Assembly: GCA_017443165.1 (NCBI GenBank)
Contig: JAFSOW010000071.1
Coordinates: forward strand, 1-13,001
Reading direction: 5' to 3'
DNA from: Acidaminococcaceae bacterium
GTDB lineage: Bacteria > Bacillota > Negativicutes > Acidaminococcales > Acidaminococcaceae
Length of the DNA: 13,001 nt
Shown: in pieces, positions 4,136 to 10,952 of the stretch
Layout of the letters: each line of letters starts with the position of its first letter
How positions within the stretch are numbered: the stretch's first letter is position 1
The notes under the pieces: model-generated
What the model was told of the DNA's origin: nothing
The model's database searches: none
Seen by the model: the letters and a program-made list of their open reading frames with translations, nothing else
Position numbers and translations under genes: made by a program

Positions 4136-4164
4136 TTGACAAGCTTATACACCTCTGTTATAAT
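4136..4164 (+). promoter_or_regulatory. Consensus sigma-A promoter for the SpeD-like gene
   Basis: TTGACA (4136-4141) and TATAAT (4159-4164) are separated by exactly 17 bases, and TG precedes the -10 by one base (4156-4157). All twelve core positions match consensus. Transcription should start near 4171, giving a leader of about 83 bases before the TTG start. The leader holds no riboswitch or attenuator that I can recognise. Such a promoter predicts strong, possibly unregulated transcription. Confidence 0.85.
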
Positions 4165-4253
4165 TATAAAGCACTACACTATTTCAAAAGTAGCAGAAAA
4201 CACAGAACGGGCAGGGTAATCCGCGCCGGCAGTTTTAAAAAGGAGACTTTATT

Positions 4254-4706
4254 TTGAAATCAGGATTATTAGTAGCTGCCGACCTGTACGGCTGCGCGGA
4301 AGATGCGCTGGTGCAGGAGGCTTTAAAAAAAGTTCTGGAAGATTATGCGGAAAAAAACTCCATGCACATGCAAAGCGTACGTGTAGAACGGGAAAATGAA
4401 ACCAGTTACGGTATTTACAGCATTTGTAAAGCCGGTCATATCATCCTGCACGTGAACATGGAAAAAGGGTTTGTCGCCATAGACGGTTTTTCCTGCAGCG
4501 AAAATGCCGATCCGGAAAAAATGGTACGGGAACTCTGCAGTTTTCTTGCCCCTGATAAAATGAAACTGACCTATGTTGACCGGGGCGATTTCGGCAAAAA
4601 GGCTGACATGAAACCGCGGCACCGCAACAAGTCCCGTAAAATTGCCCAGATGCGCAACATGACCAAACGTTTCGGGAAACTTCTGATAAAGCCGAAATCT
4701 TTATAA
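4254..4706 (+). CDS. SpeD-like protein (S-adenosylmethionine decarboxylase fold) lacking the pyruvoyl-forming serine
   Basis: 150 residues, starting at TTG 4254 with AGGAG 8 bases upstream. Residues 1-111 resemble bacterial class 1B S-adenosylmethionine decarboxylase, a proenzyme that cleaves itself before a serine to make a pyruvoyl cofactor for polyamine synthesis. Conserved here: the VAADLYGC start (7-14), GHIILH (61-66, for SHLTIH), KGFVAIDGFSC (71-81, for the YGYAAIDLFTC-like strand) and ADPEK (85-89). By recalled comparison with the Thermotoga enzyme, His66 (for His68) and Cys81 (for Cys83) are kept, but the cleavage serine (Ser63) is Gly61 and its preceding Glu is Ala60. It should therefore not form pyruvoyl by the known route. 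Residues 111-150 are a basic tail with 14 Lys/Arg and 2 Asp. The gene stands alone, with its own promoter and terminator and no speE neighbour. The function is unknown; it may be non-enzymatic or a different enzyme. Confidence 0.72.
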   Translation: MKSGLLVAADLYGCAEDALVQEALKKVLEDYAEKNSMHMQSVRVERENETSYGIYSICKAGHIILHVNMEKGFVAIDGFSCSENADPEKMVRELCSFLAPDKMKLTYVDRGDFGKKADMKPRHRNKSRKIAQMRNMTKRFGKLLIKPKSL

Positions 4707-4746: not shown

Positions 4747-4786
4747 AGAGCCGGACAGCAATGCCCGGCTCTTTATTTTTGTTTTT
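4747..4786 (+). terminator. Intrinsic terminator of the SpeD-like gene
   Basis: AGAGCCGG (4747-4754) pairs with CCGGCTCT (4765-4772) around a 10-base loop, followed by TTATTTTTGTTTTT. It lies about 40 bases after the stop at 4706. The reverse strand has no T-run after the hairpin, so it probably works only for the plus strand. Confidence 0.88.
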
Positions 4787-4835: not shown

Positions 4836-5306
4836 TCAGTTCCCGCGGTAACTCATAAAAGCCTGGTCCCCGTATTTTACGATCACGTTCCATAAAACGG
4901 TGCCCTTACGGATATCCAGCTTATCCACATTGTTAACCATGGCGCTGCCCTGGATCGGCAATATAGTTCTGTTATAAATCACATGATGGACATAATAGAG
5001 CTCGGAAGCTTTAACATCAAACTGGATCATGCCTTTTTCATCGGCATAAGCTTCCTGCCCTTTTTCCTTTGTCGTGTTATACAGCATGATAACTCCCGGC
5101 AGCGGCGCGTTATCCCGGGTCATGAACTGGAAAACAATTTTCGCCGTACCTTGTTTGCGAATCGCCTGGGCTTCTTTCACATAATGGTTTTTATAAGGAT
5201 TCTCGTCGCTGGGCGCCGCAAACGCAACCACGGATAATGAAGTGATAAACACCGTCAGCAAACTGACTAACAGCAAAGAAACTTTTTCATGAGAAGACCT
5301 CCACAA
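4836..5306 (-). CDS. Small secreted protein of unknown function, start apparently frameshifted
   Basis: I do not recognise a family. The frame encodes a hydrophobic signal segment (VSLLLVSLLTVFITSLSVV) ending in AFA-AP, a likely signal peptidase I site. About 125 mature residues follow, rich in short hydrophobic and polar stretches that suggest a beta-sandwich of the carboxypeptidase-regulatory or CnaB type; that is only an impression. The open frame can be extended to TTG 5306, but that codon has no ribosome binding site. Instead GGAGG (5298-5302) is 7 bases before ATG 5290, which is in another frame and reads only MKKFLCC before a stop. One extra A in the A5 run at 5283-5287, or a -1 slip, would give MKKVSLLLV..., a normal signal peptide start. 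The gene is transcribed alone from the promoter near 5385. It is either intact through slippage, a recent pseudogene, or affected by a sequence error. Confidence 0.6.
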   Translation of the reverse strand: MWRSSHEKVSLLLVSLLTVFITSLSVVAFAAPSDENPYKNHYVKEAQAIRKQGTAKIVFQFMTRDNAPLPGVIMLYNTTKEKGQEAYADEKGMIQFDVKASELYYVHHVIYNRTILPIQGSAMVNNVDKLDIRKGTVLWNVIVKYGDQAFMSYRGN

Positions 5307-8964: not shown

Positions 8965-9010
8965 TAGAAGCAGGTCTCAAGGGCAAAATACACAACTACA
9001 AAATCATGCT

Positions 9011-9046
9011 CCGGCGATTCCCGGCATTCTTTTGCCGGATTGCCGG
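9011..9046 (-). terminator. Two-step hairpin after the glutamine synthetase gene, possible terminator
   Basis: Outer arms CCGGC/GCCGG (9011-9015 and 9042-9046) enclose inner arms CCGGCA/TGCCGG (9021-9026 and 9033-9038), starting just after the stop. On the minus strand only a short ATTTTG follows, and not directly. It could be a weak terminator or a 3'-end stabilising structure. Confidence 0.5.
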
Positions 9047-9047
9047 T

Positions 9048-10952
9048 TTAATCAATGATGTTCTGCCTGTAATCGTGATACAACGCATAGAGTTCGTCTT
9101 TCAGTTTCTGCATCTCCAAAAACTTCGCGGATACCGCGTCGTAATCCCCGGCCTCTATGGCATTTTTAATTTCGGTAAACGTGCTGGTCTCCTTCGCGGA
9201 ATCTTTCGCCAGTTTATTGCGCACGGCCTGGATCTTTTTCCAGACAGCATTGTCATATGCGGTTCCGTTGCCGGCATCATGCAGTTTCTTCGTTGCCACC
9301 ACATCGGCCCGGACTTCCGGGATCAGCCGGTTCAGCAGCTCCGTCTTCCAGCGGATCATGGCGCCTTCCGCAAAGGAACGGATCACCGCTTCGCCAAAGA
9401 TGCCGCCTTCCATGATAACTTTCTTCTTTTCCGGATATTTATCCCAGTTCCGGATGTTTTCCCACACGGTGGCAGGCGGCTCGCCAAAGAGTTTGGCCCG
9501 CTCTTCCGCCGTAAAGTCTTCAAACACATCGGCTTCGGTACGGTATTCCCTGTCTTTTTCCAGATAAAAACCCTTCTGTCCGGCCTTTTTGGAAATTTCC
9601 TTTTCCAGCTGGGTCAGGGATTTCTTGCTGGTCACACAGGCTTTGATGCCGTCCAGGGCTGCCAGATAGAACGCCGCGATGGCGATATAAGTATTGGTAT
9701 AGGGGTTCGGGGAACGCATCTCGATGCGGGTCGCCAGCGGATTGTCCAGGTCACGGATCAGGCCGGCCAGAATGGTGCGGTTCCGGGAAGGGATATCCGG
9801 GGCAAGGCCCAGAGAAGTGACAATGCACACCGGCGCCTCAAAGCCCGGTTTCAGCCGGTTGAAAGCGTCCGTGGTGGCGGAGATGAAGGGGTTGATGGCC
9901 TCATAATTCTTCATGATGCCCATCACAGCGCCATACCCTACCGCGGACAGGAAATCCTTATGCATGTCCGCCGGGGCGAACAGATTGACCACTTTGCCGT
10001 TTTTCAGTTTGGCTGCAATGCCCACATGGGTATGCTCGCCGCTGCCGGCCACACCGGGGATCGGTTTTGCCTGGAAAGAAATGTCCAGGCCGTTCTGGCG
10101 GAACACTTCCTTGACGATGATGCGGGCCAGAATTTCATTGTCTGCCGTCTGCAGGCCCACATTATATTTCCAGTCTACTTCCAGCTGTTCGTTGATATGG
10201 GTCATATGGCCGGAGGAATCAATCTGTCCTTTGACGCCGCCGCATTCTTTATGCCCCATTTCCGGTTCCAGTCCGTACAGCTCCAGCATCTCAATGGTCT
10301 GCTCCAAAGCCGTGCGTACATTGCCGCGAGTGCGCTGCCAGTACATCTCCTGCATGACCTGGGAGGAAGACAGGGCCTCGATGGGAGAATTTTCCCGGGG
10401 AGATTTCACCCAGAATTCCAGTTCCGTTGCCGTGGTGAAGATCAGATGCGCAATTTCATTCACATCAATGTTCTCCAACCCGGGAATGTGCGGATACTTT
10501 TTCAGAAGGGCCAGGATTTCGTCTTCCACATACTGCAGGGATTTCTTCAAAAGAGAACGGGAATCCACGTACTCGCCGTTATGGGTCAGGAAACAGGGCA
10601 TGCGGAGAGTGCCTACCATGCGCCCTTTTTCGTCAAAATGCTCATAGTTATAATCCACGTACCAGTTTACGTCTTTGTCCACTTCCATATCCACACGGGC
10701 GTCGTTCAGGGTGGCGATGCCGGGCAGTACTACGGAAGATCCGTCGGTCTGGGCGGCACTGCCGGTCAGGAACTTGTCAATATCATGCAAAAAAATGTTG
10801 ACGGGAATCTTTTCATCCGTATCGTTCCCTGCCAGGTCCACGCCCATCAGAGAAACAAACTGCACCTCTTTATGGTCGGCCAATAACTGCAGCAGCGTTT
10901 CTTTTGTCTGCTGTGAAGGTTTAATCACATACAGCAATTCATTTTTTCCCAT
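9048..10952 (-). CDS. glnA: Long-form glutamine synthetase
   Basis: Makes glutamine from glutamate, ammonia and ATP. At 634 residues it is between type I (about 440-470) and type III (about 700). The core is recognisable: DGSS (70-73) in the N-terminal beta-grasp domain, TELEF (176-180), EVDWKY (258-263), KPIPGVAGSGEHTH (296-309, metal and ammonia region), NRLKPGFEAP (365-374), SRNR (389-392) and RIEMRSPNPYTN (409-420). Residues 244-257 are an insertion between the GQ and E of the usual GQxE block. The last about 190 residues form a Lys- and Glu-rich helical extension, with no NLYDLP-type adenylylation site, as in the C-terminal part of type III enzymes. The ATG at 10952 has only a weak adjacent ribosome binding site; a GGGGGG run lies behind a small hairpin. 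It is transcribed alone from 11025-11053. Function is secure, the subclass less so. Confidence 0.92.
   Translation of the reverse strand: MGKNELLYVIKPSQQTKETLLQLLADHKEVQFVSLMGVDLAGNDTDEKIPVNIFLHDIDKFLTGSAAQTDGSSVVLPGIATLNDARVDMEVDKDVNWYVDYNYEHFDEKGRMVGTLRMPCFLTHNGEYVDSRSLLKKSLQYVEDEILALLKKYPHIPGLENIDVNEIAHLIFTTATELEFWVKSPRENSPIEALSSSQVMQEMYWQRTRGNVRTALEQTIEMLELYGLEPEMGHKECGGVKGQIDSSGHMTHINEQLEVDWKYNVGLQTADNEILARIIVKEVFRQNGLDISFQAKPIPGVAGSGEHTHVGIAAKLKNGKVVNLFAPADMHKDFLSAVGYGAVMGIMKNYEAINPFISATTDAFNRLKPGFEAPVCIVTSLGLAPDIPSRNRTILAGLIRDLDNPLATRIEMRSPNPYTNTYIAIAAFYLAALDGIKACVTSKKSLTQLEKEISKKAGQKGFYLEKDREYRTEADVFEDFTAEERAKLFGEPPATVWENIRNWDKYPEKKKVIMEGGIFGEAVIRSFAEGAMIRWKTELLNRLIPEVRADVVATKKLHDAGNGTAYDNAVWKKIQAVRNKLAKDSAKETSTFTEIKNAIEAGDYDAVSAKFLEMQKLKDELYALYHDYRQNIID

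Follow-up and report, generated by a model that had tools for sequence, protein, structure and literature searches.

Why would a bacterial lineage keep a relative of S-adenosylmethionine (AdoMet) decarboxylase from which the serine that forms the pyruvoyl cofactor is gone? The question is raised by a SpeD-like gene in a 13,001-nucleotide stretch of an Acidaminococcaceae genome, referred to here as the window (Table 1). The favoured answer, with a probability of roughly 0.47, is a class-specific SpeD paralogue in which an enzyme gained a second, tail-dependent role and then repeatedly lost catalysis.

Table 1. Features at and around the SpeD-like gene, in positions of the window. Tm, Thermotoga maritima.
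Feature	Position	Strand	Basis
sigma-70/A promoter TTGACA-17-TATAAT	4136..4164	+	12/12 consensus bases, TG before -10
ribosome-binding site AAGGAG	4240..4245	+	sequence
SpeD-like protein gene, 150 aa, TTG start	4254..4706	+	ORF
SpeD (AdoMet decarboxylase class 1b) domain, residues 1-111	4254..4586	+	Pfam 8-111, fold
Ala60-Gly61 codons replacing Glu-Ser (Tm E62-S63)	4431..4436	+	sequence, alignment
His66, equivalent to Tm His68	4449..4451	+	His in 63/66 family rows
Cys81, equivalent to Tm Cys83	4494..4496	+	Cys in 44/66 family rows
class-specific basic C-terminal tail, residues 112-150	4587..4703	+	DFG..DMKP motif, then predicted amphipathic helix
terminator-like stem-loop between convergent genes	4747..4772	-	consensus scan scores - strand only

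A SpeD fold without the pyruvoyl-forming serine

The window protein matches the SpeD family of Pfam (PF02675) at 58.3 bits against a gathering cut-off of 25, and comparison of predicted structures gives the class 1b SpeD fold. An unrelated fold, which the sequence-only reading had named as grounds for abandoning its proposal, was looked for and is rejected; the observation itself, a SpeD homologue without the self-cleavage serine, is confirmed by the family match, the fold and the Ala60-Gly61 pair. Gly61 stands where T. maritima has the pyruvoyl-forming Ser63, and known chemistry upholds the earlier statement that such a protein cannot mature like SpeD. The active-site positions said to be retained, His66 and Cys81, counterparts of the T. 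maritima residues His68 and Cys83 treated in PMC10407285, are both present. The score against the NCBIfam equivalog TIGR03330 is 54.1 bits, below the cut-off of 75.65.

The glycine is not a private mutation, a second ground on which the proposal could have failed. It recurs in 19 of 20 rows of an alignment of the window protein with 19 close relatives, one row of which has no sequence at this stretch, and in 9/9 rows from its own family. Gly61 is fixed across the rows of that family; other families of the class keep serine. The overall interpretation is thus borne out in part: the loss is real, but it is probably one of several, and the basic tail had been missed.

Several other elements of the window were noted. 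The stem-loop downstream of the gene is matched by chance expectation (one found, 1.0 expected by shuffling) and also has a T-rich run 3' of it on the + strand. The gene convergent with the SpeD-like gene (4836-5306, -) encodes a 156-aa protein that begins like a signal peptide and matches nothing in Pfam. A 626-codon open frame (9006-10886, +) overlaps the glutamine synthetase gene (9048-10952, -) on the opposite strand and is probably a codon-bias shadow. The comFC-like gene (657-1770, -) looks odd in that its phosphoribosyltransferase match covers residues 193-235 of 242 only, and it has competing overlapping frames.

Distribution of the family and of the serine

Relatives number 38 by phmmer and 49 and 169 by profile searches (the best 120 of the 169 listed), and the closest named ones belong to Succiniclasticum and other Acidaminococcaceae, which places the window in that genus or next to it. 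Ten relative loci (L002-L011) have the TTG start codon at the same place. The family profile matches 357 of 380 Negativicutes genomes, mostly once per genome, and 228 of the 234 with completeness of 90% or more and contamination of 5% or less; where a genome matches twice, the second match may be a canonical SpeD or come from a broken frame. The same search gives no match in some complete genomes of the window's own family (e.g. G002, G011), so the protein is not strictly essential. In a 398-genome sample of the phylum, the profile matches 267 genomes. Among the matches listed from that sample, only those of 14 same-class genomes reach the end of the model (positions 147-152, E <=3.2e-41). The best match outside the class has E 9e-33, and among the matches listed (to about 7e-28) the rows from outside the class end by position 128, apart from three that reach 129, 138 and 144 by crossing a stop codon. 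The family forms one clade against nine canonical SpeD rows (100/100), and the window protein shares its hallmarks, usually a single copy per genome and a SpeD domain followed by a conserved basic tail.

A free-standing, class-wide, tail-bearing and often serine-less SpeD was not found described among the open-licence PMC papers listed; it can be classed as a pseudoenzyme of the SpeD family to which a new module has been added. Source names, where given, call family members AdoMet decarboxylase; for the serine-less members these records are probably wrong. By known chemistry a serine-less protein cannot make the spermidine precursor, and spermidine synthesis may have been miscredited to gut and rumen bacteria through it.

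The 66 family proteins read come from 64 of 80 representative genomes and two further loci (L010, L012); the representatives outside the tree are G003, G010, G051, G060, G085, G086, G097, G125, G132, G138, G176, G190, G217, G315, G316 and G352. Of the 66, 26 retain serine, 18 of them together with the preceding glutamate. The other 40 have glycine (32 rows), cysteine or alanine (three each), threonine (one) or phenylalanine (one) in its place. The 18 Glu-Ser keepers fall in groups f5, f6, f8, f11, f13, f14, f18, f21-f28 and f31, which we infer to be Sporomusa-like; group f20 resembles the window's own family in having glycine throughout (14/14 rows). On a tree built without the two motif columns, the Ser/non-Ser label needs 10 changes, and well-supported branches alone force four for the Ser group and one for the Gly group. 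Serine was probably lost repeatedly across the class, with a number of independent losses that is soft because columns are few, branches long and the bootstrap unsettled. The coexistence of serine-keeping and serine-less states in one class opens the non-catalytic job to comparison.

Other marks run through the whole family, serine keepers included. Asp10 is present in 66/66 rows where SpeD has Glu (9/9), and the SpeD Trp at position 68 is lost, to Tyr in 58/66 and to Asn in both tree rows of the window's genus. C14, D77 and R110 are each found in 66/66. Among the 40 serine-less rows, H62, C14, D77 and R110 are kept in 40/40 each, H66 in 38/40 and Cys81 in 29/40. Judged by this alignment, the pocket is not free to drift in serine-less members, H62, H66, C14, D77 and R110 being nearly fixed. 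AdoMet binding is not to be assumed, because Cys81 is inconstant and Trp68 is replaced. In groups f32-f35, the proteins of loci L110, L111, L112, L115, L121, L122, L130, L132, L136, L137, L141, L142, L143 and L145 carry Phe at the Cys83 position, and the pyruvoyl position of some is taken by Ala, Cys or Phe.

Spermidine synthesis in the genus and class

Each of 14 genomes of the window's genus, two of them only 73-75% complete, has exactly one PF02675 match. Spermidine synthase (PF01564) has no match in 12 of these 14, the window's own genome being 73% complete. In the other two, half-length hits scoring 24.9 and 26.3 bits (cut-off 22.9) lie in frames of 380-426 aa; they are not convincing and are not counted as SpeE. 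The SpeE partner looked for beside a SpeD enzyme is thus missing for the window protein, and with one PF02675 match and no convincing SpeE in the genus, a role as AdoMet decarboxylase or as its activator is unlikely there.

The activator role would be that of a dead partner which heterodimerises with a live AdoMet decarboxylase, in other parts of the class the class 1a SpeD. Such a pair is described for Trypanosoma brucei (PMC5201418), where a dead AdoMet decarboxylase paralogue activates the live one. Many class genomes hold suitable components. Among 80 representatives, PF01564 matches 69 and exceeds the cut-off in 68; the 11 without a match include G051 (98% complete) and G027 (96% complete). 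Most SpeE genomes also encode another, class 1a-sized SpeD homologue (about 260-300 aa), in many cases a few kb from speE (e.g. G010:C97, G098:C23), and that of G098, the one tested, is class 1a (TIGR03331, 397 bits, cut-off 256). In the genus there would be nothing to activate, unless it has a SpeD unlike PF02675, and the tail would go unexplained, which leaves this reading a slim chance.

The simple rule that serine is kept only where spermidine synthesis exists is rejected: SpeE is matched in 19 of 20 f20 genomes, yet the 14 f20 proteins read all have glycine. Eight of the 80 genomes (G001, G014, G036, G176, G214, G244, G262, G334) speak against a clean story, having a SpeE match (E 1e-54 to 1e-57) and the tail-bearing SpeD as their sole PF02675 homologue; seven of these tail-bearing proteins were read, and 7/7 are without serine. 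The aminopropyl donor for SpeE in the eight has no evident source, and a hidden tie to polyamine synthesis is possible. SpeE passes the NCBIfam spermidine synthase cut-off in the three genomes checked of the eight, G014, G244 and G334. The speE clusters of these three (L196, L197, L199) hold a decarboxylase and a carboxynorspermidine-synthase-like gene (405-421 bits, cut-off 800), with nspC matches in G244 (455 bits) and G334 (405 bits; cut-off 409). This may be a carboxynorspermidine-type route, by which spermidine would arise without AdoMet decarboxylase.

A change of substrate has also been considered, the protein then being SpeDA or SpeDC, which use a pyruvoyl group to decarboxylate arginine or ornithine, respectively. 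SpeDs with a new function of this kind are widespread (PMC10407285), and serine-keeping members could be among them. The window protein, with Gly61, lacks the serine that this activity needs. Diamine synthesis in the class also has no evident gap to be filled, since the PLP decarboxylase families PF01276 and PF02784 (the latter includes LysA) are matched in 46 of 46 class genomes tested, a set that does not include the window's own. The chance of this reading is very slim.

Basic tail, promoter and related systems

Behind the SpeD domain the family carries a tail of median 39 residues (34-61; 66 rows), whereas SpeD ends 11-12 residues after the domain-closing Arg-Gly (9 rows). Its net charge has a median of +9 (5 to 20) against -2 to +2 for the SpeD equivalent, with a median domain charge of -0.5; in the window protein the tail has +12 and the domain -5. 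The opening DFG..DMKP motif has P121 in 66/66 rows and D118 in 62/66, with Glu in the other four. The end of the tail is a predicted basic amphipathic helix, and 46/66 rows beat shuffles at p below 0.05. The AlphaFold model of the window protein has a tail helix at residues 130-143 with low pLDDT (53-65), and the tail of a Dendrosporobacter member with Ser and no Glu is modelled at pLDDT 52-64.

Above noise, the tail was found on the SpeD-like protein only (38/38 genomes searched), the next best other protein having E 0.009. The tail alignment (A6) gives chance-level matches only to Pfam and PDB sequences (best values 0.037 and 0.052, the latter GCN4). The tail as a known domain is rejected on these matches; such sequence searches leave a known fold possible, and VIA-align rows hardly test the tail.

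The tail helix could be read as a membrane anchor, in an envelope role in which the protein senses or handles diamines for polyamine-modified peptidoglycan. The amphipathic character of the helix suits such an anchor, and Negativicutes OmpM is described as anchoring to cadaverine- or putrescine-modified peptidoglycan (PMC10628300). Only a coincidence of distribution links the protein to that envelope. At the compared loci, where neighbours were Pfam-typed for a few (L103 and L094 among them), no gene beside it was recognised as an envelope gene, and a search of the open-licence PMC literature for a peptidoglycan diamine transferase found nothing. The envelope role is accordingly rated as quite unlikely.

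The distribution of constraint sets the tail apart from the domain. Between the window and ten relatives, pN/pS is about 0.08-0.33 and tail pN 0-0.085, from which it follows that the gene is not decaying, as the sequence-only reading had maintained. Among Glu-Ser keepers from different families, median pairwise identity is 0.74 in the domain and 0.66 in the tail, and the tail is the more similar part in 42/150 pairs. Among serine-less proteins from different families, the values are 0.29 and 0.41, and the tail exceeds the domain in 562/646 pairs; it does so in 91/91 pairs within f20 and in 31/36 within the window's own family. This shift is the pattern that would be expected if serine keepers are still enzymes and serine-less members keep only a tail-linked function. 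The best-kept novelty of the protein is the basic tail, not the pocket.

Drift of the domain after serine loss is what a decaying SpeD relic would also display. Such a relic is refuted by the purifying selection, the consensus promoter, the conserved tail and retention across nearly the whole class, and its chance is negligible. Harder to dismiss is a still active enzyme, whose pocket would catalyse a reaction independent of a pyruvoyl group, perhaps even one tied to polyamine synthesis. The His, Asp and Cys14 residues that stay in serine-less rows speak for it, as do the eight genomes with SpeE and no other SpeD. The fall of between-family domain identity after serine loss speaks against it, together with the 11/40 serine-less rows that lack Cys81, the want of a conserved pathway operon, and the hint in three speE clusters of a spermidine route without AdoMet decarboxylase. 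On this balance a still active enzyme is unlikely.

The promoter ahead of the family gene matches the consensus at 11 or all 12 bases in 48/68 loci (one genome is counted twice, as L037 and L097), against 19/534 other genes in the same loci (Fisher p 3e-39). The recurring form is TTTACA or TTGACA, a spacer of 17 and TATAAT, and in Sporomusa-like groups the leader often exceeds 100 nt. A structured leader RNA is rejected: an Rfam scan of 20 loci has no match at the gene, with only rRNA and tRNA nearby. CAI lies above the median of the neighbours in 14/19 genomes (Wilcoxon p 0.002), above 80% of the neighbours in seven, and below the ribosomal-protein median in 18/19. Codon usage is only mildly adapted and lends weak support to high abundance, so the claim made here is for strong conserved promoters.

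No conserved operon that would suggest a pathway was found at the family gene in the loci compared. In the window's own family and its order-mates, the gene usually adjoins recD2, a comFC-like gene or both, and the window follows this pattern. In Sporomusa-like and some other groups it is divergent from ctsR-mcsA-mcsB-clpC(-radA), in loci that often hold flavodiiron-type, nitronate-monooxygenase-family and rubrerythrin genes, and in some an rRNA operon. This place beside ctsR-mcsAB-clpC-radA is kept across many family groups (L103, L094, L100 and others). Co-regulation with the neighbouring ctsR operon is rejected, given that a CtsR-like box occurs upstream of none of the 68 family genes and of 8/25 ctsR-cluster genes.

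Under the favoured reading, the class ancestor would have held a class 1b SpeD that gained the basic tail while its pocket changed from Glu to Asp10 and from Trp to Tyr68. This tailed SpeD may have been bifunctional, its domain carrying out a reaction that depended on pyruvoyl and its tail serving a second job. In many lineages the serine would then have given way to Gly, Ala, Cys, Thr or Phe, which would have ended the reaction, and the tail and the pocket His and Asp residues would have been retained for the second job. As a proposal for that job, the uncleaved domain could bind a small ligand, either a cation or a nucleoside, in the former active-site pocket, the cationic tail and amphipathic helix could contact rRNA or the ribosome, the nucleoid or an anionic membrane as a polyanionic partner, and binding to this partner could report the ligand level. 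In its boldest form the account casts the class-wide dead SpeD fold with its cationic tail as a regulator or a structural factor that is near-universal and strongly promoted. It would bind rRNA or the ribosome, the nucleoid or the membrane in answer to a ligand related to polyamines or AdoMet. Having started as a bifunctional enzyme, it would have discarded its catalytic half several times and been kept for the second function. That fuller form is a tentative and doubtful extension.

The family appears to offer a natural case of an enzyme that gains a second module and then loses catalysis, probably several times. A near-universal protein behind consensus promoters and so far found in one class only also gives an entry point to the outer-membrane-bearing class of Firmicutes.

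The AdoMet decarboxylase-like N-terminal domain of human spermine synthase has a role in dimerisation, and the trypanosome prozyme has, to our knowledge, no basic tail. The human domain (PDB 3c6k) differs from the window protein in being fused to an aminopropyltransferase. The prozyme (PMC5201418) is alike as a catalytically dead AdoMet decarboxylase paralogue under selection, but it has a eukaryotic class 2 fold and acts on a live partner, a partner that the window's genus lacks. A dead C-terminal SpeD domain that has lost its self-cleavage residues is likewise described for Victivallis vadensis (Lentisphaerota), where it is fused to an active SpeD (PMC10407285). New pyruvoyl activities are described for the bacterial arginine and ornithine decarboxylases SpeDA and SpeDC (PMC10407285) and for phage SpeDs (PMC9992855). 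SpeDA and SpeDC resemble the family as SpeD paralogues with a changed job, but they are still pyruvoyl enzymes that need Ser63 (PMC10407285), which the window protein does not have. In Veillonella, a dual RNA-seq study reports an 'S-adenosylmethionine decarboxylase proenzyme' (Vpar_0438), which could be either SpeD type, as 18-fold down in coaggregates (PMC6529473). Set against the class 1b SpeD of T. maritima (TM0655; PDB 1vr7, 1tlu, 1tmi), the window protein is without the pyruvoyl serine, falls below the TIGR03330 cut-off and has no convincing SpeE in its genus; Asp10 and Tyr or Asn68 replace Glu and Trp in its family, and it carries the basic tail.
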